In this document: positions 1,853 to 15,748 of the stretch, piece by piece | Numbering within the stretch: the stretch's first letter is position 1 | Layout of the letters: every line of letters begins with the position of its first letter | Origin: Bacteroidaceae bacterium | Lineage (GTDB): Bacteria; Bacteroidota; Bacteroidia; Bacteroidales; Bacteroidaceae | Length of the DNA: 64,000 nucleotides | NCBI GenBank assembly: GCA_017465905.1 | Contig: JAFTVE010000005.1 | Location: 28,186-92,185 of the forward strand | Direction of reading: 5' to 3' | Translations under genes and position numbers: made by a program | The notes under the pieces: generated by a model | Told to the model about the DNA's origin: nothing | The model's database searches: none | Seen by the model: the letters and a program-made list of their open reading frames with translations, nothing else

Positions 1853-4800
1853 ATGTCGATATGGAGTAGACTATTAGGAATTAAGGATGCTGCAGACCTG
1901 AATAGATTTATAGGCCGAGAACAAGCATCCACCATGTATGATGCATCGCATTATGCAATAGTGGATGTGGAGATAAGTTTGAGGGATAATAAAATCCATG
2001 ACATTGGTTCTATTCGCTATGATAGATCTACATTCCACAGTGGTTCTAAAGAGCAACTTCTCAAATTTCTGGGCAGCTTAGATTTTATATGTGGTCACAA
2101 TATAATCCATCATGATGCAAAATATCTTTTTGGAGATAAAAAGATACGTTGGATTCTCGTCGACACGCTATATATGTCGCCTTTATTGTTCCCCGAACGT
2201 CCATACCACAAACTTGTAAAGGACGACAAGCTGATGAGCGAACAGATGAATAATCCTGTGAATGACTGTAGCAAAACACAAGATTTATTGTTCGATGAAA
2301 TAACACGTTGGAAGTCTCTGTCGGAGGACAAACGCAAATTGTTTGCCTCACTATTGATAGGTAAGGAGGAATTTAGAGGGTTTCTACTTATGGTAGGGGC
2401 TGAGAGCATACCAGCCAGTGAGTTACCAGAACTAATTAGGAGCGTTTACGGAGGTAGAATATGTCATCATGCAGACATTGATTCATTGGTCAAGCAATAT
2501 CCTTGCGAGTTGGCTTACGCTTTAGCATTAATTGACACTACGGACTATCGTTCCATCACGCCCAGTTGGGTATTGCGCAATTATCCTCAGGTGGAGTATG
2601 TGGTAAAACTATTACGCGAAACTCATTGTAGTATCGGGTGTGACTATTGTAATTCTCAGTTAGATGTACACCAGAGTTTGAAAACTTTCTTTGGTTATGA
2701 CCAATTCCGTACATATGAGAATGAACCTCTTCAAGAGAAGGCTGCCAAAGCTGCTGTTGATGGCAAATCACTCTTGGCTATATTCCCGACTGGTGGAGGT
2801 AAGTCGCTGACATTCCAACTTCCTGCACTGATGGCTGGTCGCTCTGTTCATGGACTCACTGTCGTGATATCTCCTTTACAATCCTTAATGAAAGACCAAG
2901 TTGATAACTTGGCGGAAAGAGGAATCACAGATGCGGTCACAATCAACGGTTTGCTGGATCCTATCACTAGAGCTCTGTCTATCCAGAGAGTACAGGATGG
3001 TGAAGCTTCATTATTGTATATAGCACCCGAGATGCTTCGTTCCAAAACGATTGAGAAGGTGCTAATGTCGCGTCATGTAGTAAGATTTGTGATAGATGAA
3101 GCGCATTGTTTTTCTTCTTGGGGTCAGGATTTCAGAGTCGACTACCTCTATATAGGGAAGTTTATCCGTGAATATCAGCGAAAGAAAGGATGCAAGAGTC
3201 CTATTCCTGTATCTTGTTTCACGGCTACGGCAAAGCAGAAAGTTGTGCAAGACATCTGCGACTATTTCAAACATGAACTGGATTTAGATTTACAATTGTT
3301 TGCATCGAAAGCTGCACGTACCAATCTCCGCTACTCTGTCATACATACAGATACGGATGAGGATAAATATATAAAGTTAAGACAACTTGTAGCAGAATTT
3401 GATTGTCCGACAATTATATATGTGTCACGAACCAAGCGAACTAAAGAGTTGTCGGCCAAACTGACCCGCGATGGCTTCAAGGCATTGCCCTTCAATGGTA
3501 AGATGGAAGCCGAAGAGAAGATTGCCAATCAAGACGACTTCATGAACGACAAGGTTCGTATCATTGTTGCCACATCGGCCTTCGGAATGGGTGTTGACAA
3601 AAAGGATGTTGGGTTGGTCATACATTATGACATATCCGACTCTTTGGAGAATTATGTGCAAGAAGCGGGAAGGGCTGGTCGTGACCCACATCTCAATGCG
3701 CGTTGCTATGTACTTTATAAAGACACAGACCTTGACAAGCATTTCATATTATTGAATCAGACCAAACTGAGCATAAGTGAAATTCAGCAGATTTGGAAAG
3801 CGATTAAGAGTCTTACTAAACAGCGCCCAAGGATTTGTTGTTCGGCACTCGAAATAGCAAGACATGCAGGATGGGACGATTCGGTCTCTGACATAGAAAC
3901 TCGTGTCCGTACAGCCTTGTCGGCTTTAGAGCAAGGTGGTTATCTTGAGCGAGGGAACAATGTTCCTCATGTATATGCTACCGGCATTACGGTCAAGAAT
4001 ATGGACGAGGCAAGAAAACGCATCACTGAGTCCGTTTTGTTTGAGAGCGATGAAATTGAAAAGGCTGTAAGAATTATCAAATCGTTGATTTCTCAGAAAC
4101 AAATCAGTAAAGCACAAGATGCTGATGCCGAATCCCGTGTAGACTATTTGGCCGACATATTGGGCCTGACCAAAGGTGAGGTTATATCCGCTGTTGAGAG
4201 AATGCGGCAAGAAGGAATTTTGGCCGATAGTAAAGATATTTCAGCATACCTTCAAGATGCAGGAGACTCGGAACGAAAGTCTTTAATGCTTCTTGAGCGT
4301 TTCGCAAAGCTGGAACAATATATCTTAAGCCATATCCCAGATGGTGCATTAAAAATATCCAGCAAACAATTGAATGACAATGCCGTAAATGACGGAATAA
4401 CGATGTCCAAGGAAAAAGACATTCGGACATTGCTTTACTTCCTCACCGTGAAGGGCTATACACGGAAGAAAGAGGACGGCAATCACAACATGGAGATTAT
4501 TCGTCAGGCCGATATGGAATCTACCATCAGCCGCTTCGAAAGGCGATTGGAGATATGTCGTTTTGCCGTAGATTGGTTATATAAATTGGTAGCAGAAAAG
4601 TCTTTTGAGTCTAAACCGAACAATGCTGTTCAGTTTTCTGTCGTAGAACTACTGAATCAAATAAAATCCAGCCATAATTCTCTCTTTAGCAGTTTTGACA
4701 CGCTACAATTGGAGGACGTAGAGGAAGCGCTACTTTATTTGTCCAAAATCGGAGCGCTAAAACTTGAAGGAGGCTTTCTTGTCCTTTACAACGCAATGGA

Positions 4801-6757
4801 TATCCGAAGATTGAAGGACAACAAGTCGAGATACAAGGTAGATGACTACCGTATGCTCAATGAATTCTATAAACAAAAGATTCAGCAAGTGCATATTGTT
4901 GGCGAATATGCCAATCTGATGGTAAAGGATTATAACTCGGCGCTCCAATATGTACAGGACTACTTCCAAATGGATTATAAAAGATTCATTTCTAAATACT
5001 TTAAGGGGGACAGAATTAATGAGATCCAACGTAATGTTACTCCCGGTAAATATGAACAACTATTCGGACAACTCTCAAAACGCCAAATGGAGATTGTCTC
5101 AGACAAGGAGTCGCGTTGCATTGTTGTAGCTGCAGGGCCGGGTAGCGGGAAGACACGCGTACTTGTACATAAGTTAGCTTCATTGCTACTGCTCGAAGAT
5201 GTCAAGCACGAACAACTCTTGATGTTGACTTTTTCAAGAGCAGCGGCTACGGAGTTTAAGCAACGTCTGATGGAACTGATTGGTAATGCTGCACATTTTG
5301 TTGAAATCAAGACATTCCATTCTTATTGTTTCGACCTATTGGGACGTATCGGGAATCTTGAAGATTCAAAGAATGTAGTTGCAGAAGCAGCAGAGATGAT
5401 TAGCCAAGGCGAGGTGGAACCGAATAGGATAGGGAAGACTGTGTTGGTTATTGATGAGGCTCAAGATATGAGTGCAGATGAGCATGCACTTGTAAGAGCC
5501 CTGATGAATAACAATGAAGAGATGCGCGTGATAGCAGTAGGAGATGATGACCAGAATATCTATGAGTTCCGTGGTTCCAATTCATGGTACATGCTTCAAT
5601 TAGCACAAGAACCGGGAGGGCGTTTTATCGAGATGACAGAAAACTACCGTAGTTCACGGCACGTAGTAGATTTTGCCAATAAGTTTGCCAAAAACATAGA
5701 CCGAAGGATAAAAAGTACGCCAATCATATCTATGAGGGACAATGAAGGTTGGGTGGAAATCACTCACCATACATCAAAGGAAATGTATTGTCCCATTGTT
5801 AATAACTATCTTAAAAATAGTCGTAGCGGTAGAGCTTGTGTATTGACTCAAACAAACGAGGAAGCAGTAATCTTAGTAGCTTTAATGCGCAAGCAGGGAA
5901 TAAACTCCAAACTGATACAATCTATGGAAGGTTTCCGTCTGTACAATTTGGCAGAAATGAAATATTTCCTCAAACAAATCGAAAAGAAAATTGCTACACC
6001 TCTCATTACTGACGAATTGTGGGAGGAGGCAAAGCAAGTGACCTATTCCAGCTATGCGACAAGTCAAAGTATACCTTATATAAAGCGTTGCGTTGAACTT
6101 TTTGAGCAAACAAATAAAACGAAGTATTATAGTGATTTCAAGGAATTCGTTTTTGAATCATCCATTGAAGACTTCTGTGACACATCAGATGCCGATGTAG
6201 TTGTGTCTACCATACACAAAGCCAAAGGTCGGGAGTTCGATGATGTATATATGCTGTTATCAGACAATTATTCTAAAGATGACAATTTGATGCGGAGATA
6301 CTATGTTGGAATGACACGTGCAAAGAACCGTTTGTTCATACATACAGACTCCCATCTTTTCGATAGAATGAAAGTTGACCAGCACATTGTTGATACTAAG
6401 GAATACGCCATGCCTGAGGAGATAGTATTGCAACTATCACATAAGGATGTGAACTTGGGATTCTTCAAGAACTTAAAACGAGAAATACTTTCACTCAGAG
6501 CTGGCGACTCTTTGAGTTATGACAATTTCATTTTGTCCAATAACTGTGCTAAACCTGTAGCCAAACTATCTCAGAATATGCAACAGAAGATGATGGAGTG
6601 GCAAGAAAGAGGGTATATGGTTAAATCTGCATCTGTAAGGTTTATTGTTGCCTGGAAACCTAAAGATGCTCCCAAAGATGAACCAGAACATGCAGTATTG
6701 TTGGCTGATATGGTGCTATTCAAGGATTTTACTCAGAAAAATATAACGCAAACGTAA
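1853..6757 (+). CDS. Giant DnaQ-like exonuclease / RecQ / UvrD fusion helicase
   Basis: A 1,634-residue protein with three enzymatic parts. Residues ~30-150 look like a DEDD 3'-5' exonuclease: D38-V-E40, N83...D88 in GHNIIHHDAKYL, and D138, although the usual motif III histidine position holds Asn. Residues ~290-680 are a RecQ-type SF2 helicase (FPTGGGKS near 312, VIDEAHCFSSWG near 413, QEAGRAGRD near 602). Residues ~1085-1560 are a UvrD-type SF1 helicase (AAGPGSGKT near 1092, VIDEAQDM near 1198, GDDDQNIYEFRGS near 1230, STIHKAKGREFDDVYM near 1452). It would bind and unwind DNA, perhaps degrading it. It is monocistronic within an accessory island, so a role in repair, recombination or defence is possible; the exact role is not shown by sequence. 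Confidence 0.88.
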   Translation: MSIWSRLLGIKDAADLNRFIGREQASTMYDASHYAIVDVEISLRDNKIHDIGSIRYDRSTFHSGSKEQLLKFLGSLDFICGHNIIHHDAKYLFGDKKIRWILVDTLYMSPLLFPERPYHKLVKDDKLMSEQMNNPVNDCSKTQDLLFDEITRWKSLSEDKRKLFASLLIGKEEFRGFLLMVGAESIPASELPELIRSVYGGRICHHADIDSLVKQYPCELAYALALIDTTDYRSITPSWVLRNYPQVEYVVKLLRETHCSIGCDYCNSQLDVHQSLKTFFGYDQFRTYENEPLQEKAAKAAVDGKSLLAIFPTGGGKSLTFQLPALMAGRSVHGLTVVISPLQSLMKDQVDNLAERGITDAVTINGLLDPITRALSIQRVQDGEASLLYIAPEMLRSKTIEKVLMSRHVVRFVIDEAHCFSSWGQDFRVDYLYIGKFIREYQRKKGCKSPIPVSCFTATAKQKVVQDICDYFKHELDLDLQLFASKAARTNLRYSVIHTDTDEDKYIKLRQLVAEFDCPTIIYVSRTKRTKELSAKLTRDGFKALPFNGKMEAEEKIANQDDFMNDKVRIIVATSAFGMGVDKKDVGLVIHYDISDSLENYVQEAGRAGRDPHLNARCYVLYKDTDLDKHFILLNQTKLSISEIQQIWKAIKSLTKQRPRICCSALEIARHAGWDDSVSDIETRVRTALSALEQGGYLERGNNVPHVYATGITVKNMDEARKRITESVLFESDEIEKAVRIIKSLISQKQISKAQDADAESRVDYLADILGLTKGEVISAVERMRQEGILADSKDISAYLQDAGDSERKSLMLLERFAKLEQYILSHIPDGALKISSKQLNDNAVNDGITMSKEKDIRTLLYFLTVKGYTRKKEDGNHNMEIIRQADMESTISRFERRLEICRFAVDWLYKLVAEKSFESKPNNAVQFSVVELLNQIKSSHNSLFSSFDTLQLEDVEEALLYLSKIGALKLEGGFLVLYNAMDIRRLKDNKSRYKVDDYRMLNEFYKQKIQQVHIVGEYANLMVKDYNSALQYVQDYFQMDYKRFISKYFKGDRINEIQRNVTPGKYEQLFGQLSKRQMEIVSDKESRCIVVAAGPGSGKTRVLVHKLASLLLLEDVKHEQLLMLTFSRAAATEFKQRLMELIGNAAHFVEIKTFHSYCFDLLGRIGNLEDSKNVVAEAAEMISQGEVEPNRIGKTVLVIDEAQDMSADEHALVRALMNNNEEMRVIAVGDDDQNIYEFRGSNSWYMLQLAQEPGGRFIEMTENYRSSRHVVDFANKFAKNIDRRIKSTPIISMRDNEGWVEITHHTSKEMYCPIVNNYLKNSRSGRACVLTQTNEEAVILVALMRKQGINSKLIQSMEGFRLYNLAEMKYFLKQIEKKIATPLITDELWEEAKQVTYSSYATSQSIPYIKRCVELFEQTNKTKYYSDFKEFVFESSIEDFCDTSDADVVVSTIHKAKGREFDDVYMLLSDNYSKDDNLMRRYYVGMTRAKNRLFIHTDSHLFDRMKVDQHIVDTKEYAMPEEIVLQLSHKDVNLGFFKNLKREILSLRAGDSLSYDNFILSNNCAKPVAKLSQNMQQKMMEWQERGYMVKSASVRFIVAWKPKDAPKDEPEHAVLLADMVLFKDFTQKNITQT

Positions 6758-6776
6758 TAAAGTGAAAATTGTGTAA

Positions 6777-6947
6777 AAGCACTTATTTCTAGAAGCTGTT
6801 GCTGCTAATTTTGCAACATCTGCTACGGATGTAACAGCGTATCAGGTAGATTACTATAACCTTGGCGTGATTATCTCTGTTGGTTACAAAGTAAAATCAG
6901 TGCGAGGTATGCAATTCTGTCACGGCGGAATCCGCCGTCCCTGAGTA
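6777..6947 (+). pseudogene. Remnant of a rhuM-family gene
   Basis: Translation in the frame starting at 6777 gives a stretch containing ANFATSATDVTAYQ followed by YYNLGVIISVGYKVKSVRG. This closely matches the RhuM core (compare FYTLDVIISVGYRVKSQRG in the intact gene at 12717-13685). The frame opens after a stop and closes at 6945-6947, so only about 55 codons survive. It is read as a decayed or truncated copy of a RhuM-type gene, perhaps left after recombination between dispersed repeats. Confidence 0.75.
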
Positions 6948-7085
6948 TCAAGGCTGTGACCCTGAAATAATATAGAGGATAGAACCCCCTACCTCAACAC
7001 CCTCGGGTTACAAACCCGAGGAGAAGGGAAGAACATTATTCATGGAAAATTCATGGTCAATTTACGGCAATTCATGTTCACAAAA

Positions 7086-7206
7086 GAGAAAGAATAGGGG
7101 AATCCTTGCAATCTTCTCGCGCAATCCCCAAGACGAGCAAAAAGAACGCAGCCACGGACGATTAGGAAAAAGCAAGAAGTAAGCGAAACGTGAGTTTTTG
7201 AGTTTA
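7086..7206. repeat. Dispersed ~120-bp repeat, copy 1
   Basis: Shares long near-identical stretches with 12184-12316 and 13873-13980, including AATAGGGGAATCCTTGCAAT, AAAAGAACGCAGCCA and GCAAGAAGTAAGCGAAACG. All three copies lie in the same orientation. The copy sits just downstream of the rhuM remnant. Confidence 0.85.
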
Positions 7207-7475
7207 AAGATGGCACCCAGTTGATATAAGGGTGTACAAGTTTGTGTATAAGTTATGTACAAGCTAATGATACTGTTTATAGTAGGTTAAACTATCAAGA
7301 ATTTCTTTACAGTTCAATTGCGGATATATTTGATTCCTCAAAAATGTAGGACATGTCTCACTTTTTTAAACAAGAGCTACGACAAAAAAATAATCAGACG
7401 CGCAAATTCACACCCAACCTATCATAAAATAAAGAAAAAGTATTATATTTGCATATTATATGATGTGTTACGGTT

Positions 7476-7796
7476 ATGGCAAAGAGTACAATGGGGACTA
7501 AATTGCCCCGAAAGTTGGAGCAGAAGATGCAGGTTGTTGGTGAGCAGATAAGGCTTGCCCGATTGCGTCGTAATTTGAGTGTTGCACAGGTTGCGGAGCG
7601 TGCCACTTGTTCGCCACTTACGGTTTCGCGCATCGAGAAGGGTGTGCCGACGGTTGCGATTGGCATCTATCTGCGTGTGTTATATGCCCTGCAACTTGAT
7701 GATGATATTCTCTCATTAGCAAAAGATGACGAACTTGGTAGGGCGTTGCAAGATATGAATTTGCCACAGCGTGAAAGGGCATCTAAAAAACTCTAA
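7476..7796 (+). CDS. hipB: HipB-like XRE-family DNA-binding antitoxin
   Basis: A 106-residue protein with a Cro/CI-type helix-turn-helix at about residues 20-75: the segment VGEQIRLARLRRNLSVAQVA, then ERATCSPLTVSRIEKG, matches the canonical XRE pattern. HipB proteins bind operators upstream of their operon and neutralise the HipA kinase. Here hipB is followed by a nuclease-like gene and then a full-length hipA, all on the same strand with very short gaps, so the three genes probably form one autoregulated operon. The start is ATG. The -7-like TATATTTG at 7444-7451 would place transcription start close to the ATG. Identification rests on the HTH and on the hipA neighbour. Confidence 0.85.
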   Translation: MAKSTMGTKLPRKLEQKMQVVGEQIRLARLRRNLSVAQVAERATCSPLTVSRIEKGVPTVAIGIYLRVLYALQLDDDILSLAKDDELGRALQDMNLPQRERASKKL

Positions 7797-7809
7797 GTCT
7801 ATATATAAT

Positions 7810-8604
7810 ATGGAACTCTCATTACGCAAAACTAAAAAACAGAATTTAAATTTTGTCATATCTTCCTACCCTTCAGAATTGGGAGAAGATGTAAATATTG
7901 CTTATAACTTTATTAAAGAGATGTTTTTTAGAGTATGTAAGCAGTCTTTGTTATTTAGCAGTAGCAAATATGATATTATCGAATACCCTTTTTTGTTTAG
8001 AGAGCGTCAGTTAGACTCTGTTGTATTACCTGTTATATCATCTCTATGCAATGGGTTGGTAATAGCTGAATATCCTATCGTTAGAGATAGCTGCATAAAA
8101 GGTTTTGAAAAAGATAATTCAAAAGGACGAATTGACTATTGGTGCGTATACAAGGACTATAGTTTGATTATTGAAATGAAACATAGTTATGACGCATTAA
8201 GAACGGACAAAACCAATGATGAAAGGCTTATTAAAAGATGGGAAACGATGACTATAGGTCAACTTCAAGATGTCCGAAAAAATGTGAAATACTTTAGTGA
8301 AAATACAAAAGGGGTAATAAGAATAGGCCTTAATTTTATAACTCCATATTCTAGCCGTGATAACGATATGAATGATGTTACCTTTTTTGAGAGTAATCAA
8401 AAAGACATCTTAAAAAGGTTAGCAAGAGATGTTAGCCGTCATAAGCCCAAAACTACGACCCCAAATTTCTTGGCAAGTTGGGTTTTGCCAGATGAAAAAA
8501 AATACTTTGAAGTCTCTTATAAAGGCACCTATCCAGGCTTATTACTGCTGGGAAAGATTTATTCTCCCATTGCACACGAAGGATGTGTAAAAGTTAATGA
8601 TTAG
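7810..8604 (+). CDS. Uncharacterised PD-(D/E)XK-like protein inserted between hipB and hipA
   Basis: I do not recognise the family. From the ATG at 7810 the protein has 264 residues; a GTG at 7771 would add 13 residues and overlap hipB, and I prefer the ATG. The motif GRID-Y-W...IIEMKH (D109, E122-x-K124), with an upstream glutamate E87 in LVIAEYP, fits the PD-(D/E)XK nuclease fold: beta-strand Asp, then E-x-K on the next strand. This would make it a candidate nuclease or a dead nuclease-fold binding protein. No membrane segment or signal is seen. It ends two bases before hipA starts, so co-translation with the kinase is likely. Composition is AT-rich like the rest of the island. Alternative: a HipA-associated accessory factor without nuclease activity. 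Confidence 0.65.
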   Translation: MELSLRKTKKQNLNFVISSYPSELGEDVNIAYNFIKEMFFRVCKQSLLFSSSKYDIIEYPFLFRERQLDSVVLPVISSLCNGLVIAEYPIVRDSCIKGFEKDNSKGRIDYWCVYKDYSLIIEMKHSYDALRTDKTNDERLIKRWETMTIGQLQDVRKNVKYFSENTKGVIRIGLNFITPYSSRDNDMNDVTFFESNQKDILKRLARDVSRHKPKTTTPNFLASWVLPDEKKYFEVSYKGTYPGLLLLGKIYSPIAHEGCVKVND

Positions 8605-8606
8605 CT

Positions 8607-9860
8607 ATGAAAAAGTTGTATGTATATGCCGATTTTGATTGGCTCAAGGAAACTGAGTTGGTGGGAGAACTTGGCTACGAATCACTTCGTGGCTCGGATA
8701 GTTATAGTTTTAAGTTTGCAGATAGTTGGATAAAGAAATACAATGCCATTACCCTTAGCGAAGACCTTAACAACTATCCTGGAATACAATACACTCAGCC
8801 GAATAAAGATATTTTTGGTTGCTTTGCCGATGCTCTTCCCGACAGATGGGGACGCACTCTTCTCCTCCGTCGTGAACAAATTTTGGCACAAGAGGATAAC
8901 AGACCTATACGCCGTCTATCATCGTTTGACTTTTTGACGGGTATTGATGACTTTTCCCGTATGGGAGGATTCCGATTCAAAGAAACACTTGATGGCGAGT
9001 TCATAAACGCGGACAACTCATTGCGTATTCCTCCATTGACCGACTTGCGCGAACTCATTGCAGCAAGCAAAGAGATTGAAAAAAGCGAGGATGCTAATAC
9101 CCTCCCCGAGAAACGATGGATTGCTCAACTTGTGCTACCGGGCTCTTCGCTCGGCGGTGCTCGCCCCAAAGCAAATGTTGTAGATACGGACCGCAGGATT
9201 TATGTCGCAAAGTTCCCATCATTGAAGGATGATTATGATGCAGGACTATGGGAACATTTCTGCCATATATTAGCCAAAAATGCGGGCATAAACGCAGCCG
9301 AAACAAAAGTACTTGAAATAAATGACAAGCATCATACGCTCCTTTCTCGTCGTTTTGATAGAACGGATGATGGCAAGAGAATACATTTTGCATCGGCAAT
9401 GACCTTGCTTGGTTTGAACGACGGCGACAACGCTACAACAGGACACGGATATATTGACATTGTTGATTTTATCATTAGCGGTTGTACCGATGTTGATGTG
9501 AACTTGCGAGAACTATTCCGCCGAGTTGCATTCAATATCTGCGTAGGCAACAGCGATGATCATTTCCGTAACCACGGTTTTCTGCTCACTGCAAAAGGCT
9601 GGACACTATCGCCTGCATACGATATGAACCCAACGCTGAATGACCATCAAAGTTTGCTCATTAACAGCAAGACCAACGAATCTGATTTGTCGATTTTGCT
9701 CAACTCGTGTGAGGAGTATATGCTCACACCAGAGGTTGCAAAGAGTATCATCTATGAGGTTGCAACTGCTGTCAAGGATTGGCGAGTGTTGGCAAACAGA
9801 TTAGGCATCGCTAAGCGAGAAATGAGTTTGTTCGAAGATGTATTTGACAGAGAGATTTAA
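8607..9860 (+). CDS. hipA: HipA-family serine/threonine kinase toxin
   Basis: A full-length 417-residue HipA-type protein (many Bacteroidales copies are split into two short genes). The N-terminal HipA subdomain covers residues ~1-100. The kinase core shows the glycine/serine loop GSSLGGARPKANV (179-191), the nucleotide-binding lysine in YVAKFPS (K202), the catalytic loop NSDDHFRNHG (D317, N322) and the metal-binding SPAYDM (D339). Characterised HipA kinases phosphorylate aminoacyl-tRNA synthetases and arrest growth; the target of this one cannot be read from sequence. It lies two bases after the nuclease-like gene and shares an operon with hipB. All expected catalytic residues are present, so it should be active. 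Confidence 0.9.
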   Translation: MKKLYVYADFDWLKETELVGELGYESLRGSDSYSFKFADSWIKKYNAITLSEDLNNYPGIQYTQPNKDIFGCFADALPDRWGRTLLLRREQILAQEDNRPIRRLSSFDFLTGIDDFSRMGGFRFKETLDGEFINADNSLRIPPLTDLRELIAASKEIEKSEDANTLPEKRWIAQLVLPGSSLGGARPKANVVDTDRRIYVAKFPSLKDDYDAGLWEHFCHILAKNAGINAAETKVLEINDKHHTLLSRRFDRTDDGKRIHFASAMTLLGLNDGDNATTGHGYIDIVDFIISGCTDVDVNLRELFRRVAFNICVGNSDDHFRNHGFLLTAKGWTLSPAYDMNPTLNDHQSLLINSKTNESDLSILLNSCEEYMLTPEVAKSIIYEVATAVKDWRVLANRLGIAKREMSLFEDVFDREI

Positions 9861-9955
9861 GAATTAGAGGAAATGTGATAATTATATATTTATTTTGACA
9901 TTAAATAATTTGAAACAATAACAGATAAAAAATAACAAAAATGTGAAATAATAAT

Positions 9956-11236
9956 ATGAAAGAACTTATTTTAGAATTATCAAACTATTTAGAGTCTGGA
10001 TATGCAGTAATTACGATTGTTGCATCAATTGCCATTTTTATATATCAGAGCATTAAATTAAAAAATGAACGATTTAAACAATACGCAATAGACTTATACA
10101 AAGAAAATAACACTACGGCACAAATCACGTCTGCCATATTATTAAGAACATACCTAAAGCCGATATTTCATATATTTAAGAACCCATATGAAAAAGATAC
10201 TATTAATTTAATAGTTGCTATTTTAAGACATATACCAAATGGGCCATTACAAAAGACATTGGCAGATAGCATTTCATATGTAAGGAAGGCTGATGGACAA
10301 GATTTTCAATATATAAACCTTAGTTCGGCATCTATAAAGCCTAAATATAGAATAGACTTTGAGATATATAATAATACAAATTATTTGAATAAGCGTATTT
10401 CTATGCGTTGTGCTGACTTTTATTGTTCAGATATTACATCAAGCGGAGTGTACCATATAAATGCAGAAAAATCAGTATTCTATAATTGTCTATTATGTAA
10501 AAGTTCATTTTATAACTGTATTTTGGAAGGTGCTGATTTTAGAAATGCGGATATACACAATTTGAAATTTGTTGATTGTATTTTGACTGATGCAAAATTC
10601 GATGGAGCTATTGGATTAGATTCTGCAATGGTCGTTAGTACGGCTACGAATGAAAAATATGCATTAATAAATTATCTCAATGAAGATGGTTTATTTGATA
10701 ACTATTGTAAAGCCATTCGCTATCAGTGCAATGACACTCCAAAAAAAATTTTTGTAAGCAGACTTGGAGAAATGAATACCAAGCAAAAGCTATATTTTAA
10801 TTATATACTTGACTATCTTGAACAAAAGTATAATTACAAGTATGAGCAAATTCAGCCTCAAGAGTATCGTGAGTCTGAACAGATTTCAATGATAAAAAAT
10901 AGAATGGCACAGTGTTCTGGTATAATAGTTTTTGCATTTTCTCAAATACATATTGACAGTGGAGAAATTGTAAACAAGACTCAGCAAATATGCAATGAAG
11001 AGTATTCATCTCCATGGTTGCACATTGAAACGGCGATGGCAAAGGCATTATATGATTTCCCTGTGATGATTATAACCGAAGAGAATATATCATGTAACGG
11101 AATTTTTGATAATAAGATTATAAGCAATGACAACTTAATGTTTAAAATAAACTATAGAGGGGTGCTTTCAGATAAGGACGAGAGTATAATTTCACATTGG
11201 AATAGAGCTGTAGAACAGCATAAAACAAATGCTTAG
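9956..11236 (+). CDS. Membrane-anchored pentapeptide-repeat protein with TIR-like C-terminal domain
   Basis: The 426-residue protein has one predicted N-terminal membrane helix (about 15-33, AVITIVASIAIFIYQ), a middle region with degenerate pentapeptide repeats (residues ~140-215, e.g. ADFRNADIHNLKFVDC), and a C-terminal domain of ~170 residues. That domain begins KKIFVSRLGEMN and contains MAQCSGIIVFAFSQ and SPWLHIETAMAKALYDFPVMIIT. Alternating hydrophobic strands with a conserved Glu in an alpha-helix resemble TIR or nucleoside-deoxyribosyltransferase-like (SLOG/TIR superfamily) folds, which act on NAD+ or nucleotides in many immune systems. That assignment is inference. It lies 95 bp after hipA on the same strand and could be a separate defence effector. 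Confidence 0.55.
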   Translation: MKELILELSNYLESGYAVITIVASIAIFIYQSIKLKNERFKQYAIDLYKENNTTAQITSAILLRTYLKPIFHIFKNPYEKDTINLIVAILRHIPNGPLQKTLADSISYVRKADGQDFQYINLSSASIKPKYRIDFEIYNNTNYLNKRISMRCADFYCSDITSSGVYHINAEKSVFYNCLLCKSSFYNCILEGADFRNADIHNLKFVDCILTDAKFDGAIGLDSAMVVSTATNEKYALINYLNEDGLFDNYCKAIRYQCNDTPKKIFVSRLGEMNTKQKLYFNYILDYLEQKYNYKYEQIQPQEYRESEQISMIKNRMAQCSGIIVFAFSQIHIDSGEIVNKTQQICNEEYSSPWLHIETAMAKALYDFPVMIITEENISCNGIFDNKIISNDNLMFKINYRGVLSDKDESIISHWNRAVEQHKTNA

Positions 11237-11338
11237 AATACACTCTTTGTCACTAACTATTATAATACAAATTATTTCACTACATTGGCTTCGCCGAAGA
11301 TCGGCGGCGCCTCGGTATAAAAAATAAACTCATTTATT

Positions 11339-11368
11339 TTGTTCTTCTCTCGGCTTGCACTACCTTTG
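11339..11368 (+). promoter_or_regulatory. Bacteroidales sigma-70 promoter for a candidate small RNA
   Basis: TTG (11339-11341), a 19-bp spacer, and TACCTTTG (11361-11368) match the Bacteroidetes primary-sigma consensus exactly. No coding start follows closely, but a structured segment and a strong terminator do. Confidence 0.75.
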
Positions 11369-11374
11369 CATCAA

Positions 11375-11558
11375 AGTAGGGACTCGACTCTGCGAGACAC
11401 TGCAAAATGGTGCAGAAATCAGGTGGAGCAATAGCGGGAGATTACGTTTGTTGCGATTCTTTAATGCGAAGATATAGAGCCATTTAGAAATGGAACTCGT
11501 TTTCTGGTGGCACTACTCCGAAAGAGAAGCTGTTATCTGAAAAGATAGCAGCTTTTTT
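11375..11558 (+). ncRNA. Candidate structured small RNA with intrinsic terminator
   Basis: A consensus promoter (11339-11368) is followed by ~185 nt without a credible reading frame but with several hairpins: GACTCG/CGAGAC near 11381-11398, CTGCA/TGCAG around 11400-11416, CCATTT/AAATGG near 11483-11496, and a terminator whose arms AAGCTGTTATCT and AGATAGCAGCTT (11527-11554) flank a GAAA loop and run into TTTTTT. Promoter plus hairpins plus terminator in the right order is good evidence for a transcribed RNA. I could not match it to a known family. It might be a 6S-like, antitoxin or island-regulatory RNA. Confidence 0.6.
11527..11558 (+). terminator. Rho-independent terminator of the candidate small RNA
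   Basis: A 12-bp stem with one G-T pair, GAAA loop and a run of six T. It is among the best-formed terminators in the window. Confidence 0.85.
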
Positions 11559-11660
11559 CGTGTTTTCAGGTTGGTCGTATTTTGAGAGCATACAGTGAAG
11601 GCTGTTTTAAGTTTACGGATAACGATACTGTTTCAAAAAGTGTGTCTCTATTAAGTTGTA

Positions 11661-11692
11661 AAAAAGGACCGGCCAAGTTTGGCCAGTCCTGA
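11661..11692 (-). terminator. Minus-strand terminator inside a 10-bp inverted repeat
   Basis: GGACCGGCCAA/TTGGCCAGTCC forms an 11-bp stem with one mismatch and a 2-nt loop; on the minus strand it is followed by TTTTTT. The outer repeat TAAGTTGTAA (11652-11661) / TTACAACTTA (11726-11735) brackets it. It could have ended transcription of the decayed minus-strand gene at 11861-12042 or mark an old element end. Confidence 0.65.
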
Positions 11693-11860
11693 CAAGTTTG
11701 CAATTTTGGGTGTCCAAATCTAAAATTACAACTTATGTCACTTACAAAGGAACAAATTGCTGGGTAAAATTATGGACGATGTCAATCTTTATTTAACCAC
11801 ATTGCTAAGAATCCCTTCAGAGGCTGTAGGACCGCTACATTCAGGTCTCAATAGCATTCT

Positions 11861-12042
11861 TTATTGCTTCAAACATCCTATTGGAACAATATAAATACCA
11901 TCTTCAGGGCGGCGATAGGCATGTTCGCCTGTTGCCGTTAATATCATCTTGAAAGCAGGTGCTTTCATACGTGCGGTATCAATTTGGTTGGCAGGACCTA
12001 AACCTAATGCTGTTCTGCTGTCGCAATGGATAGACCATCAAA
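11861..12042 (-). pseudogene. Coding remnant of an unrecognised protein
   Basis: On the minus strand a frame of ~60 codons ends at TAA (11861-11863) and reads like real protein: CDSRTALGLGPANQIDTARM followed by KAPAFKMILTATGEHAYRR and GIYIVPIGCLKQ. An in-frame TGA lies just upstream and no start is available, so this is the surviving C-terminus of a lost gene. The family is not recognised. Confidence 0.55.
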
Positions 12043-12183
12043 ATAGCGCGTAGTTTTTTCTTGTTTTCGGTAATTTGGCATCATATTTTTCGGTAATTTG
12101 GCATTATTCTCTTCGGTAAAATAGATCCAATCTGCAATATATTTCCTTTATAATCCATTGGCGGAAGCCAACGTGTTGTTCGT

Positions 12184-12510
12184 GAAAGAAAAAGAATAGG
12201 GGAATCCTTGCAATCTTCCCGTCCAATCCCCAAGCCAAACGAAAAGAACGCAGCCATGAGGCATTAGGAAAAAGCAAGAAGTCAGCGAAACGAGAGTTTT
12301 TAAGTTAATAAGTTATAAATGCTTACATTTATGACTCCTTGCTTGCTCGGCAATGATTAAGCGAGCTTATCATTGCTCTCGCTACGCTACGGAGTTGTCG
12401 AGTTGGGCAAGTCTATACTTCCGATTTCAACACCCCGTAAGCAAACCGCAGGGTTTTCCTATCAATATGCTACGAATTTTTTGTACAGGATTTCCGAGCG
12501 TTTCGTTCAA
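12184..12510. repeat. Dispersed repeat, copy 2 (two blocks)
   Basis: Block one (12184-12316) matches 7086-7206 and 13873-13980. Block two (about 12413-12510, containing CCCGTAAGCAAACCGCAGGG and ATGCTACGAA) matches 13994-14090. Copy 2 has about 80-100 extra bases between the blocks. Together with copy 3 it flanks the rhuM gene as a direct repeat. Confidence 0.85.
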
Positions 12511-12716
12511 GACTTAGCACCATAACACATCAGGGCATCTCCATACCCACAAAATCCCTAGAAGGTTTTCGAAGAATAGGCGATAATTAAGCGATAATAC
12601 AGAGATTTTTCGCTACGCTCAAAATGACATAATGGAAAATTGTAAATGGTAAATCGTTGAATTGTAAATTCGCCCTACTTTGAAGGCCTTCTGGGAATTT
12701 ATGGCCTTATCAGCCC

Positions 12717-13685
12717 TTATTCATTTCTTTGGTTAATCAAGTTCACCACCACCTTCACCATCACATCTTTCTCCTCAGTCTTACTCTCAGCAATCATGAG
12801 AGTGAGAGCCACGAGGGTATTATCGGCAAGGCGCTTGGTGCCGTCAGGGCGATAGAGGATGCGGTTGCCATTGAGGAACCAGAGAAAAAGAGTTGCAGCG
12901 ATGCGTTTGTTGCCATCACTAAACGAGTGGTTTTTGGTAACGAGATAGAGCAACATAGCTGCTTTTTCCTCTACCGAGGGGTATAGCTCCTCTCCACCGA
13001 AAGTTTGGTATATCTGCCCGATACTACTCTTGAAGGAGTCGTCCTTCTCGTTGCCAAACCATCGGCTGCCGCCAAACTTCTCGCGTAGGCGGTCAATCTC
13101 TTTCATAGCACCTTCGTAAGTGGCGCGGAAGGGTTCCTCGCTTGTAGTGCGGTCTATGGTAAGGCGCTCGTAGTCGTAGTTGTCGAGTGTGTCGAGGGCA
13201 TAGGTGTAGTCTACCACCACATCGAGCAGGTCTTGATTCTCTTGTTTGCTCAACTGCTCTTGACTGCTTATCGTGCGACCCAGTATCTGCACCAACTGGC
13301 GCAGTTCGGTATAGTGTTCTTGCACACGACGCTCGTTCACGGCATAGCCCTTTACGAGATATTGCTTCAGTACGCGGTTGGCCCATTGGCGGAATTGCAC
13401 GCCGCGCTGGCTCTTCACGCGATAGCCTACGGAGATGATGACATCGAGTGTATAGAAAGGAACCGGCTTCTTCACACCATTAACGTGTAAATTTTGCACG
13501 TTATTCGTTCGTTCAAGTTCACCTTCATTAAAGACATTGATAATATGTCGACGGATATTAGACTCTTCCCTGTCAAATAAACTCGCCATTTGACTGGCAC
13601 TTAACCACACCGTCTCATTCTCCATGCGGACATCAATCTGTGTCTGCCCGTCTTCGGTTTGGTAGATGATTATCTCGTTTGTCAT
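12717..13685 (-). CDS. RhuM-family protein with C-terminal Fic/Doc domain
   Basis: From the ATG at 13685 the protein has 322 residues (a TTG nine bases upstream is less likely). The N-terminal ~130 residues are the RhuM/virulence domain (VWLSASQMASLFDREESNIR, then FYTLDVIISVGYRVKSQRG). The C-terminal ~130 residues carry an intact Fic/Doc motif HSFSDGNKRIAATLF (HxFxDGNKR), which in Fic enzymes transfers AMP or phosphate to target proteins. A TATCTTTG -7 box lies at 13703-13710 on the minus strand. No separate antitoxin gene is adjacent; the RhuM half may provide DNA binding and self-control, which is inference. A remnant of a relative is at 6777-6947, and direct repeats flank the gene. Confidence 0.88.
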   Translation of the reverse strand: MTNEIIIYQTEDGQTQIDVRMENETVWLSASQMASLFDREESNIRRHIINVFNEGELERTNNVQNLHVNGVKKPVPFYTLDVIISVGYRVKSQRGVQFRQWANRVLKQYLVKGYAVNERRVQEHYTELRQLVQILGRTISSQEQLSKQENQDLLDVVVDYTYALDTLDNYDYERLTIDRTTSEEPFRATYEGAMKEIDRLREKFGGSRWFGNEKDDSFKSSIGQIYQTFGGEELYPSVEEKAAMLLYLVTKNHSFSDGNKRIAATLFLWFLNGNRILYRPDGTKRLADNTLVALTLMIAESKTEEKDVMVKVVVNLINQRNE

Positions 13686-13872
13686 ACCTCGCAAAATATA
13701 TGCAAAGATAGTAACAAACGAGCGAGAAATATCAAGCTTGCTTAGATATTTTTCAAAGCGAGTGCAGTATATCTTCGCTGTTTACTGCAAAGATAATGAT
13801 ATTTCCGTAACTGCAAGTTTGCGTCTGTCATTAATCTGTGACTTTGTTCGCTTGCGCTATAAACCCTTCTCC

Positions 13873-14090
13873 TTGCCCTCTTTCCGCCCAATCCCCAAGG
13901 CAATCGAAAAGAACGCAGCCACGAGGCATTAGGAAAATGCAAGAAGTAAGCGAAACGTGAGTTCTTGAGTTTATAAGTTTTAGAGTTGAGTAATTCTATA
14001 CTTCCAATTTCAACATCCCGTAAGCAAACCGCAGGGTTTGCCATACATTATGCTACGAAATTTTTGTACAGAATTTCTCTGCGTTTCGTA
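13873..14090. repeat. Dispersed repeat, copy 3 (two blocks)
   Basis: Block one (13873-13980) has CGCAGCCACGAGGCATTAGG and GCAAGAAGTAAGCGAAACG; block two (13994-14090) has CCCGTAAGCAAACCGCAGGG. Same orientation as copies 1 and 2. It marks the right edge of the accessory island, just before the GC-richer GH51 gene. Confidence 0.85.
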
Positions 14091-14153
14091 AAATACTCTT
14101 AAAAGGATCTGTCCATCGGTCCCGACACATTCAAAAATTGTCTGCAAGACATA

Positions 14154-14184
14154 TTGCATCTTTTACATAGAATCCTTACATTTG
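14154..14184 (+). promoter_or_regulatory. Promoter of the GH51 gene
   Basis: TTG (14154-14156), 20-bp spacer, TACATTTG (14177-14184). Transcription would start ~40 bp before the ATG at 14232. Confidence 0.7.
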
Positions 14185-14231
14185 TAGACCATAAGCGACA
14201 GAAATCATAACCCAAGAATACACTTCAGAAT

Positions 14232-15748
14232 ATGAGAAAGGGATTGCTCACACTCGCCCTTTGCCCCATGATGACATGGACACAGAACACGATAACGGTG
14301 GAGGCCGATGCCGCCCCCATCAAGTACAACACGATGATATTCGGACACTTCATAGAGCACTTTGACACACAGGTGTATGGGGGCATCTATGACCCGGAAT
14401 CGAAGTTTGCCGACGAAGACGGATTCCGCACCGATGTGATAGAGGCACTCAAGCAGATCAAGACTCCCATCGTGCGCTGGCCCGGAGGATGCTTCGTGTC
14501 GACCTATCACTGGGTAGATGGCGTGGGCCCTGACCGTCAGCCCGTGTATGACAAGACATGGCAGGTGGAAGACCCCAACACATTCGGTACTGACGAGCAT
14601 ATCAAGTGGTGCCGCAAGGTGGGATGCGAACCCTACATCTGCACCAATGCAGGCACGGGAACACCCGAGGAGATGAGCGACTGGGTGGAGTACTGCAACC
14701 TCAGCATAGGCAAGTGGGGGCGCATGCGCATGGCCAACGGGTATGACACACCCCACAACGTGAAGTACTGGAGCGTGGGCAACGAGAACTGGGGTGCTCA
14801 CGAGCTGGGAGCACGCACCGTACAGGAGTGGGGATCGCTGGTGCGCGAGAGCGCCAAGCTGATGCTCAGCGTAGACAAGGAGCTGAAGCTATTTGCCGCA
14901 GCCACATCAGACAAGAACTGGACTCTGCCGCTGCTGCGCGAGGCTGGGCGACACCTCGACTACATCTCCATACACGGCTACTGGGATCCCCTGTTCCACC
15001 ACAACAACCCTGCACCGTACCTCGACTGCATGATGCGTACCGACGCGCCCGAGAAGGACATACAGCGTACCATCGAGATACTGGAGGAGGCAGGATTCGG
15101 AGGCGGACGCATCAAGATTGCCTACGATGAGTGGAACCTGAAGAACTGGCATCACCCGTGGCACGGTGACTTCCGTCGCGGATTCGATCTGGAGGCCCGA
15201 CGCAAGAATGATATCCCCTCACAATACACGATGGCCGATGCCCTGTTCTCGGCTTGCTTCCTCAACGCCTGTCTGCGCCATGCCGACATCGTGGAGATCG
15301 CCTGTTTCTCGCCTATCGTGAACACGCGCGGAGCCATCTTTGTGCATCCCGAGGGACTGCTCAAACGCACTACATACCATGTATTTGACATGTATGTAAA
15401 CATGCTGGAAGAGTACGTGCAGCCCATACAGTGCAGCACCGAGCAACTCGCGGGCAACAACAACGCCTCCACCGGGGTGCTCGACGGCATACTCACGGTG
15501 AGTGCCGACGGCAAGCGCCACGCGCTGGTGGTAGTGAACAAGGATCCCTCGCAGAGCCGAAAGCTGACACTCGACGTGGGCAAGAAGCTGCCACGCAAGA
15601 TAGAGGGCAAGGTGCTGAGCGGTGCCTCGCCCGACGACTACAACGAGATAGGGGCCGAGAATCGCGTGGTGCCACCGACCGCACCTTCAGCGTGAAGGAC
15701 GATTGCGTGGAGCTGCCGCCCCACTCGCTCACCGTATTGCGGTTCTGA
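14232..15748 (+). pseudogene. GH51 alpha-L-arabinofuranosidase with a one-base frameshift near the 3' end
   Basis: The frame from 14232 encodes a GH51 enzyme that removes alpha-L-arabinofuranosyl residues from arabinan and arabinogalactan. The acid/base Glu is in YWSVGNENWG and the nucleophile in IAYDEWNLKNW. A hydrophobic N-terminus is compatible with a signal peptide. The frame stops at 15695 after ENRVVPPTAPSA, but the family's last residues continue in another frame (TDRTFSVKDDCVELPPHSLT, to the stop at 15746-15748). One missing base near 15672-15674 explains this. The catalytic domain is complete; only ~25 C-terminal residues are changed, so the enzyme may still work. A sequencing error is an equally good explanation. 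Confidence 0.85.

Follow-up and report, generated by a model that had tools for sequence, protein, structure and literature searches.

A probable mobile PD-(D/E)XK-like nuclease gene at the hipB/hipA junction of a Bacteroidaceae operon

Does an unusual three-gene order at a toxin-antitoxin locus mean a three-part system? The question is raised by a hip operon in a 64,000-nucleotide stretch of a Bacteroidaceae genome (contig JAFTVE010000005.1; this whole stretch is called the window), in which a further gene, called X together with its protein, lies between hipB and hipA. All three genes are on the plus strand, with gaps of 13 bases between hipB and X and of 2 bases between X and hipA. The HipB protein has a helix-turn-helix (HTH) domain matching HTH_31 (E = 2e-9) and, below the cut-off, the couple_hipB model TIGR03070 (E = 2e-6, 27 bits for a cut-off of 72). 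HipA matches the whole HipA_C profile (positions 1-213 of 213, E = 4e-47), carries the HipA N-terminal domain (E = 8e-6), and has as relatives by sequence in the PDB HipT(Lp) (8ezr, E = 2e-8) and a HipA-family protein (4pu5, E = 6e-5). A co-directional HTH gene and a full-length HipA kinase, normally adjacent, constitute a hipBA module. Coordinates, lengths, gaps, and both family assignments agree with those given in a reading of the locus from the sequence only, which went on to propose a new coupled arrangement of kinase and nuclease. We argue instead that X is probably a stand-alone mobile gene of the PD-(D/E)XK nuclease type, inserted at the hipB/hipA junction of an ordinary two-gene operon. 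The hipB-X-hipA order is a new combination of parts already known, and does not amount to a system of a new kind.

The distribution of X was analyzed at several taxonomic depths (genomes are designated by G numbers and loci by L numbers). X is present in 6 of 301 genomes of the same family; at the level of the order it was seen in 3 of 295, at that of the class in 2 of 247 (by profile search), and at that of the phylum in 1 of 296, and the window genome is counted at every level. In the genus of G543, 1 of 44 genomes has it. Collections of phages and plasmids gave no match (tblastn, E ≤ 0.01). In total, 32 distinct X loci were compared: the window, 27 loci on genome contigs, two on viral contigs, and those of G292 and G1007. 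The complete hipB-X-hipA order is found in four of them (the window, L016, L017, and L018). Two others have hipB and X without hipA (L022 and L023), and in one (L004, from G292) a divergent X lies beside hipB and a hipA stub. No adjacent hip gene was seen in the remaining 25; some of their contigs stop shortly before X, with about 50-420 bp of upstream sequence in L019, L026, L031, and L036. In L036 there is a partial hipB-like match at a distance of 6 kb from X, and in L076 (from G1007) the hip context was judged from open reading frames only.

Seen from the side of hipA, the contrast is sharper. The sample consists of the best 30 hipA loci, 164 of the 301 same-family genomes having any hipA match. 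In 28 of the 30, hipB and hipA are adjacent with no X within the 1.5-kb flanks, and a distance of 6-50 bp, counting the stop codon, separates the hipB match from the start of hipA; only the window and G543 (= L017) have X. In this sample, the two-gene operon is the norm and X an insertion. Among the X-free loci is one of the same genus, in G363, where hipBA (hipA being cut by the contig end) follows, at a distance of about 6 kb, the same chromosomal gene as in the window (positions 177-839 match at 98.9%). One would expect the genes of a three-gene system to be conserved together, and X accompanies hipB and hipA in 2 of 30 hipA loci and 4 of 32 X loci. The sequence-only reading would have been abandoned had the linkage of X to hipA not recurred at all: it does recur, but rarely, and at this frequency the proposed coupled arrangement is not supported.

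The X-free junction of L046 reads TCTAAAAAGGGATAATGTGCT, followed by the ATG of hipA. In the window, the sequence beyond TCTAAAAA gives way to another hipB end, a 13-bp spacer, and the X open reading frame, which terminates in GATTAGCT and is again followed by the hipA ATG. Both hip frames are open around X. The closest X-free alleles (L046-L049 and L068) have 6 bp between the hipB stop and the hipA start, versus the 13-bp spacer in the window; this spacer is the same in L016 and L017 and differs from that of the window at one base in each. Occupied and empty junctions thus occur in otherwise homologous alleles, as at the sites of homing endonucleases.

X and the genes that surround it have very different degrees of divergence. 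Among the window, L016, and L017, DNA identity per segment is 97-100% in X, 84-90% in hipB, and 71-95% in hipA, and farther than 200 bp outside the operon (upstream of hipB or downstream of hipA) the DNA of every pair is 38-59% alike. Between L016 and L017, synonymous divergence (dS) is 0.006 in X (1 of about 157 synonymous sites), 0.73 in hipB (34 of about 73), and 1.5 in hipA (176 of about 271, near saturation); the corresponding values between the window and L016 are 0.067, 0.53, and 1.57. The last mismatch between L016 and L017 upstream of X is at 7781, X itself has mismatches only at 7980 and in the stop codon (8602), and the next one is at 8622, so that the near-identical tract extends beyond X by no more than 28 bp on the upstream side and 17 bp on the downstream side. 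In a tree of 15 hipA rows, the genes accompanied by X are not a clade (p = 9e-79 in the approximately unbiased test), the presence or absence of X must have changed at least three times given the supported branches, and the window hipA pairs with that of X-free L046 (support 99/98). At the same junction, L018 carries an X that is more diverged (dS from the window of 1.4 in X versus 0.6 in hipA), which would be either a separate arrival or a swapped variant. As far as the sequences document it, X has moved among diverged hipBA alleles on its own, with neither hipB nor hipA following, which is the other reason for setting aside a coupled kinase-nuclease arrangement. Because nearly the same X is found in very different toxin-antitoxin pairs, it resembles a hitch-hiker and not a third part of the toxin system. 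The three-gene order is more than chance, since it is the same in L016, L017, and L018 and the ratio of nonsynonymous to synonymous divergence (dN/dS) is low, at 0.04-0.07 for hipA among the X-bearing alleles and about 0.09 for X between the window and L018 (with dS near saturation); X looks constrained.

The assignment of X to a nuclease class draws on an alignment of 28 rows, made of the window and 27 relatives with identity down to 28%. Residues 100-177 of X match the Pfam family PDDEXK_9 (PF08011) with E = 3e-4, under the curated cut-off. Invariant residues include E65, R66, E87, R92, D109, E122, K124, and Q151, and the acidic D and the E-x-K of the PD-(D/E)XK class are present in order. 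The invariance of D109, E65, and R66 is partly built in because they lie inside patterns that retrieved many of the rows; E87, E122, K124, and Q151 lie outside them. In a more distant relative, that of G1007, the D and E-x-K motifs are still recognizable by eye. The X profile was aligned by hhalign with a profile built on 28 PDDEXK_9 domains of Bacteroidales genomes (28 of the 30 loci that were fetched), giving a probability of 52 and a score of 28.6 in one setting, and 82 and 40.9 in the setting run with controls. These controls gave scores of at most 22.2 for 60 column shuffles, 12.4 for the reversed profile, 15.4 for a hipA profile, and 10.0 for a hipB profile. The two families are in register at the G-R-I-D, E-x-K, Q, and IGinF stretches, and 7 of the 28 rows match the nuclease-related domain NERD at E ≤ 1. 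Searches of the PDB gave no relative with the single sequence and one spurious designed protein with the profile (E = 0.56); NCBIfam and PADLOC gave no usable match, and PHROGs gave nothing for the window X and weak matches among the 28 members (best E = 0.018). Membership of the PD-(D/E)XK class is supported by the invariant active-site residues together with a PDDEXK_9 profile match above the shuffles. In this the sequence-only reading was right: E87, D109, E122, and K124 are where it placed them, and the conservation of the last three in homologues, on which it had staked the PD-(D/E)XK-like assignment, came out in its favor. At the level of sequence, then, we have an insertion relative to X-free alleles, open frames, and nuclease-type active-site residues.

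X is also found in other settings. In L019, L020, and L024, DNA similarity to X in other settings starts at most 6 bp before the start codon and stops at most 2 bp past the stop codon. The unit common to L021-L023 is longer, extending from -163 or -123 to about +940/+962. It sits after an apparent hipA start of about four codons (by eye) in L022 and L023, and L021 has it at another place. The hipB frame of L023 continues for about 10 residues further, and the two hipB genes differ by 6 synonymous and 1 nonsynonymous codon changes. The genes near X include HsdR and YgjP (L018), an AAA_21 and RloB pair (L037), Fic (L028), DUF3800 (L025), and endolysin/amidase-type genes (L034, L043, and weakly L025); the neighbor proteins scanned were a hand-picked sample.

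Several observations weigh against a mobile nuclease without ties to the hip genes. The PDDEXK_9 match is a sub-cut-off one, the family is matched by 8 of the 28 members at E ≤ 1, and one member matches the unrelated OGG_N with E = 2e-4, for which reason single family matches of such size are weak alone. The hipBA alleles are themselves mosaic, so that ordinary recombination through the short conserved hip ends might have carried X. Two other settings (L022/L023 and G292/L004) also have X next to hipB, which suggests more adjacency than indifference would predict, with no control set for comparison, and the hipB of L022/L023, beside X and without hipA, looks constrained. A defence role can only be inferred, since the neighbors were picked by hand with no enrichment control, and no family match was found for 8 of 10 of them in one scan and for 3 of 10 in another.

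These points bear unequally on the alternatives. A true three-component module, in which HipB keeps X (and HipA) in check or HipA switches X by phosphorylation, would account for the tight spacing of three genes in a single operon and for the HTH genes directly upstream of X in L024 and L041 (the X of L041 being broken). L022 and L023, which retain hipB with X and no adjacent hipA, are the best remaining evidence for a possible relationship between HipB and X; in the genome of L023 (G003), a search gave no close hipA, only a relative with 34% identity. The module is improbable, given that X is missing in nearly all the hipA loci sampled, that no adjacent hipB was seen in 25 of the 32 X loci, that hipB and hipA stay behind when X moves from one hipBA allele to another, and that L021 has nearly the same X as L022/L023 without hipB. 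Of the two suggestions of the sequence-only reading, that the kinase switches the nuclease and that HipB restrains both, the coupling to the kinase finds no support, and a restraint of X by HipB survives through L022/L023. An assembly or binning artefact, with X a repeat misjoined into hipBA contigs, would fit the fact that the named X-bearing hip records are metagenome-assembled, one of them (L017) with a coverage of 1.6. It can practically be dismissed, as four separate records agree on the order, with matching junctions and open frames, and the X copies are not one repeat, since those of L016 and L017 differ from the window X at 17 shared positions.

A homing-like selfish nuclease, which would cut X-free hipBA near the junction and be copied in by break repair, is a less remote proposal than the module, if still an unlikely one. 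One junction is filled in four diverged hipBA alleles, the X of L016 and L017 is nearly identical while hipB and hipA differ by 9-24% per segment, the hip frames are kept open, and the X-bearing rows form no clade on the hipA tree; in L022/L023, a different X follows roughly four codons of hipA (by eye). There is a parallel in phage T4, where mobE lies in the gap between nrdA and nrdB and is expressed from promoters upstream of nrdA (PMC2988022). According to PMC2988022, however, free-standing endonucleases cut hundreds to thousands of bp away and co-convert the flanks, and co-converted flanks are close to nil here. Recombination through the short conserved hip ends of already mosaic alleles would give the same pattern. 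Because 25 of the 32 X loci lie elsewhere, homing would also need other targets.

With X as an inserted mobile gene, the events may be pictured as follows. X would have arrived horizontally at the junction between the hipB stop and the hipA start, leaving the hip frames open. It is probably transcribed from the promoter upstream of hipB, with presumably no promoter of its own here, and its expression may follow the autoregulation of HipB; hipA would then be translated after X from the transcript of the hip promoter. The protein is predicted to cut DNA with metal ions and not to need HipA for this, and its target would be either foreign DNA (defence) or the X-free allele (homing). Among the possible tasks, cleavage of foreign DNA as a defence cargo ranks as most likely, though we hold it tentatively; homing comes second and is rather doubtful, and a toxin restrained by HipB comes third, with little to expect from it. 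A more speculative proposal, which we judge unlikely, is that X founds a free-standing homing-type PD-(D/E)XK family of gut Bacteroidales that uses the stop/start junction of toxin-antitoxin genes as a safe harbor. Insertion there would keep antitoxin and toxin intact and put X under the antitoxin promoter, X would spread through diverged hipBA alleles, and some lineages would lose the kinase and keep hipB beside the nuclease. If the favored reading is correct, a toxin-antitoxin operon offers a mobile nuclease-type gene a niche for insertion, and three genes in an unusual order do not necessarily make a three-part system. A homing-like X, if true, would mean that bacterial chromosomes harbor a free-standing selfish gene of the PD-(D/E)XK type, and a defensive X, if true, would be an unannotated nuclease family of gut Bacteroidales.

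Features of the hip locus in the window (positions are those of the 64,000-nucleotide stretch; aa, amino acids)
Feature	Coordinates	Strand	Description	Basis
hipB	7476..7796	+	HTH antitoxin/repressor-like, 106 aa	HTH_31, couple_hipB
spacer hipB–X	7797..7809	+	13 bp	junction comparison with X-free alleles
X	7810..8604	+	stand-alone PD-(D/E)XK-like protein, 264 aa from ATG; E87, D109, E122-x-K124, Q151	
hipA	8607..9860	+	full-length HipA-type kinase, 417 aa	HipA_C, HipA N-terminal domain
putative hipB promoter/operator region	7416..7469	+	inverted-repeat arms 7416-7431, 7454-7469	

An alternative GTG start of X at 7771 would give a protein of 277 aa. The arms of the inverted repeat upstream of hipB are 81% complementary, and the repeat may be the HipB operator. 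Its left arm is found, by eye, in 21 of the 22 hipB upstream regions compared, with and without X, the exception being L004, and the right arm is altered in L022, L070, and L071 (by eye). TAnnTTTG is a promoter consensus, and a TATATTTG element lies at 7444-7451, between the arms. A promoter and terminator scan of the locus was uninformative, and an Rfam scan of positions 6700-14300 gave no matches.

The operon is surrounded by direct repeats of about 104-130 bp that are 85-88% identical (7075-7204, 12177-12317, and 13870-13982), and in G344 (L113) hipBA likewise lies between related copies. Upstream, a 1634-aa RecQ/UvrD-type helicase (1853-6757) scores against the PADLOC models of DpdF, PsyrT, and GajB. 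It is 54-55% identical over nearly the full length to the helicases of L028 (3280-7965) and L029 (3209-7897), which are directly upstream of X; a helicase is near X in 3 of the 32 X loci, and the stretches fetched around the X-free hipBA of G344, G363, and G477 lack it. Downstream of hipA are a pentapeptide-repeat protein (9956-11236; PF00805, E = 4e-7) with an unrecognized C-terminal half and, on the minus strand, a protein with RhuM and Fic domains (12717-13685; PF13310, E = 6e-22; PF02661, E = 1e-11), whose C-terminal part has matches beside hipBA also in L046 and L068.

Other X loci have features of their own. G292 has an intact hipBA (G292:C1, 2789025-2790599), and the second hipB with a hipA stub beside the divergent X lies about 35 kb from it. 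On a viral-collection contig (L044, 658-4381), X is beside microvirus-type replication-initiator and major-capsid genes, possibly an integrated microvirus. The HTH genes of L024 (3654-3965) and L041 (7602-7910) are of the HTH_3 type, lie about 50-70 bp upstream of X with no hip genes, and hint at antitoxin-like partners. A conserved 131-aa gene, without a Pfam family in a scan of the L027 copy, follows X in L025, L026, and L027, and similar DNA is found in L031; a DUF3800-type gene lies upstream in L025 and L027. The arrangement (6696-9156 in L025) is a possible cassette.

How does this locus compare with known systems? A split kinase of the HipBST type was rejected on the HipA N-terminal domain match of the window hipA and the lack of a HipA-type Pfam match in X, and a general coupling of hipA and nuclease was rejected on the counts of hipA and X loci given above. 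In a survey covering 1,239 Hip kinases (PMC8262856), the types described are hipBA, hipBST, and several with two genes or one; its available portion mentions no nuclease gene between hipB and hipA, and the word "Bacteroid" is absent from its main text. The titles and abstract openings listed likewise name no such gene, subscription papers being mostly outside the search, and a search combining PDDEXK, HipA, and operon found no paper. In Bacteroides fragilis, hipAB reportedly lies downstream of a short orphan CRISPR (clustered regularly interspaced short palindromic repeats; PMC5704556). The defence system HipAD (DS-6) also pairs a HipA-type kinase with a partner gene, but the partner is a DUF3037/DUF1829 protein and not a nuclease (PMC13092281). 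X shares with PDDEXK_9 the G-R-I-D, E-x-K, Q, and IGinF stretches; many of the PF08011 domains listed sit in frames of about 500-600 codons and others in shorter ones, and the 264-aa X remains under the cut-off of the family. HipBST resembles the locus in having three genes, the HTH gene first and the kinase last, and the best PDB matches of the window hipA by sequence are HipT/HipA_C chains. The middle gene product of HipBST, HipS, resembles the N-terminal subdomain of HipA and is the antitoxin (PMC8262856 and PMC9325769), whereas the window hipA retains its N-terminal domain and X is nuclease-like. The mobE and seg genes of T4 provide a likeness for the insertion, as single open reading frames between two intact genes, present or absent at the same site and expressed from the host operon, as X would be. 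They are GIY-YIG or HNH endonucleases (PMC2988022), whereas X is PD-(D/E)XK-like, its cutting is predicted, and co-conversion of its flanks is almost absent. The closest counterpart of the operon itself is the type II hipBA of E. coli K-12, which has, as here, an HTH gene ahead of a full-length HipA kinase gene in the same orientation and an inverted repeat at the promoter; the difference is the unrelated nuclease-type gene that separates hipB from hipA in the window and in three other loci, and that 28 of 30 related loci lack.

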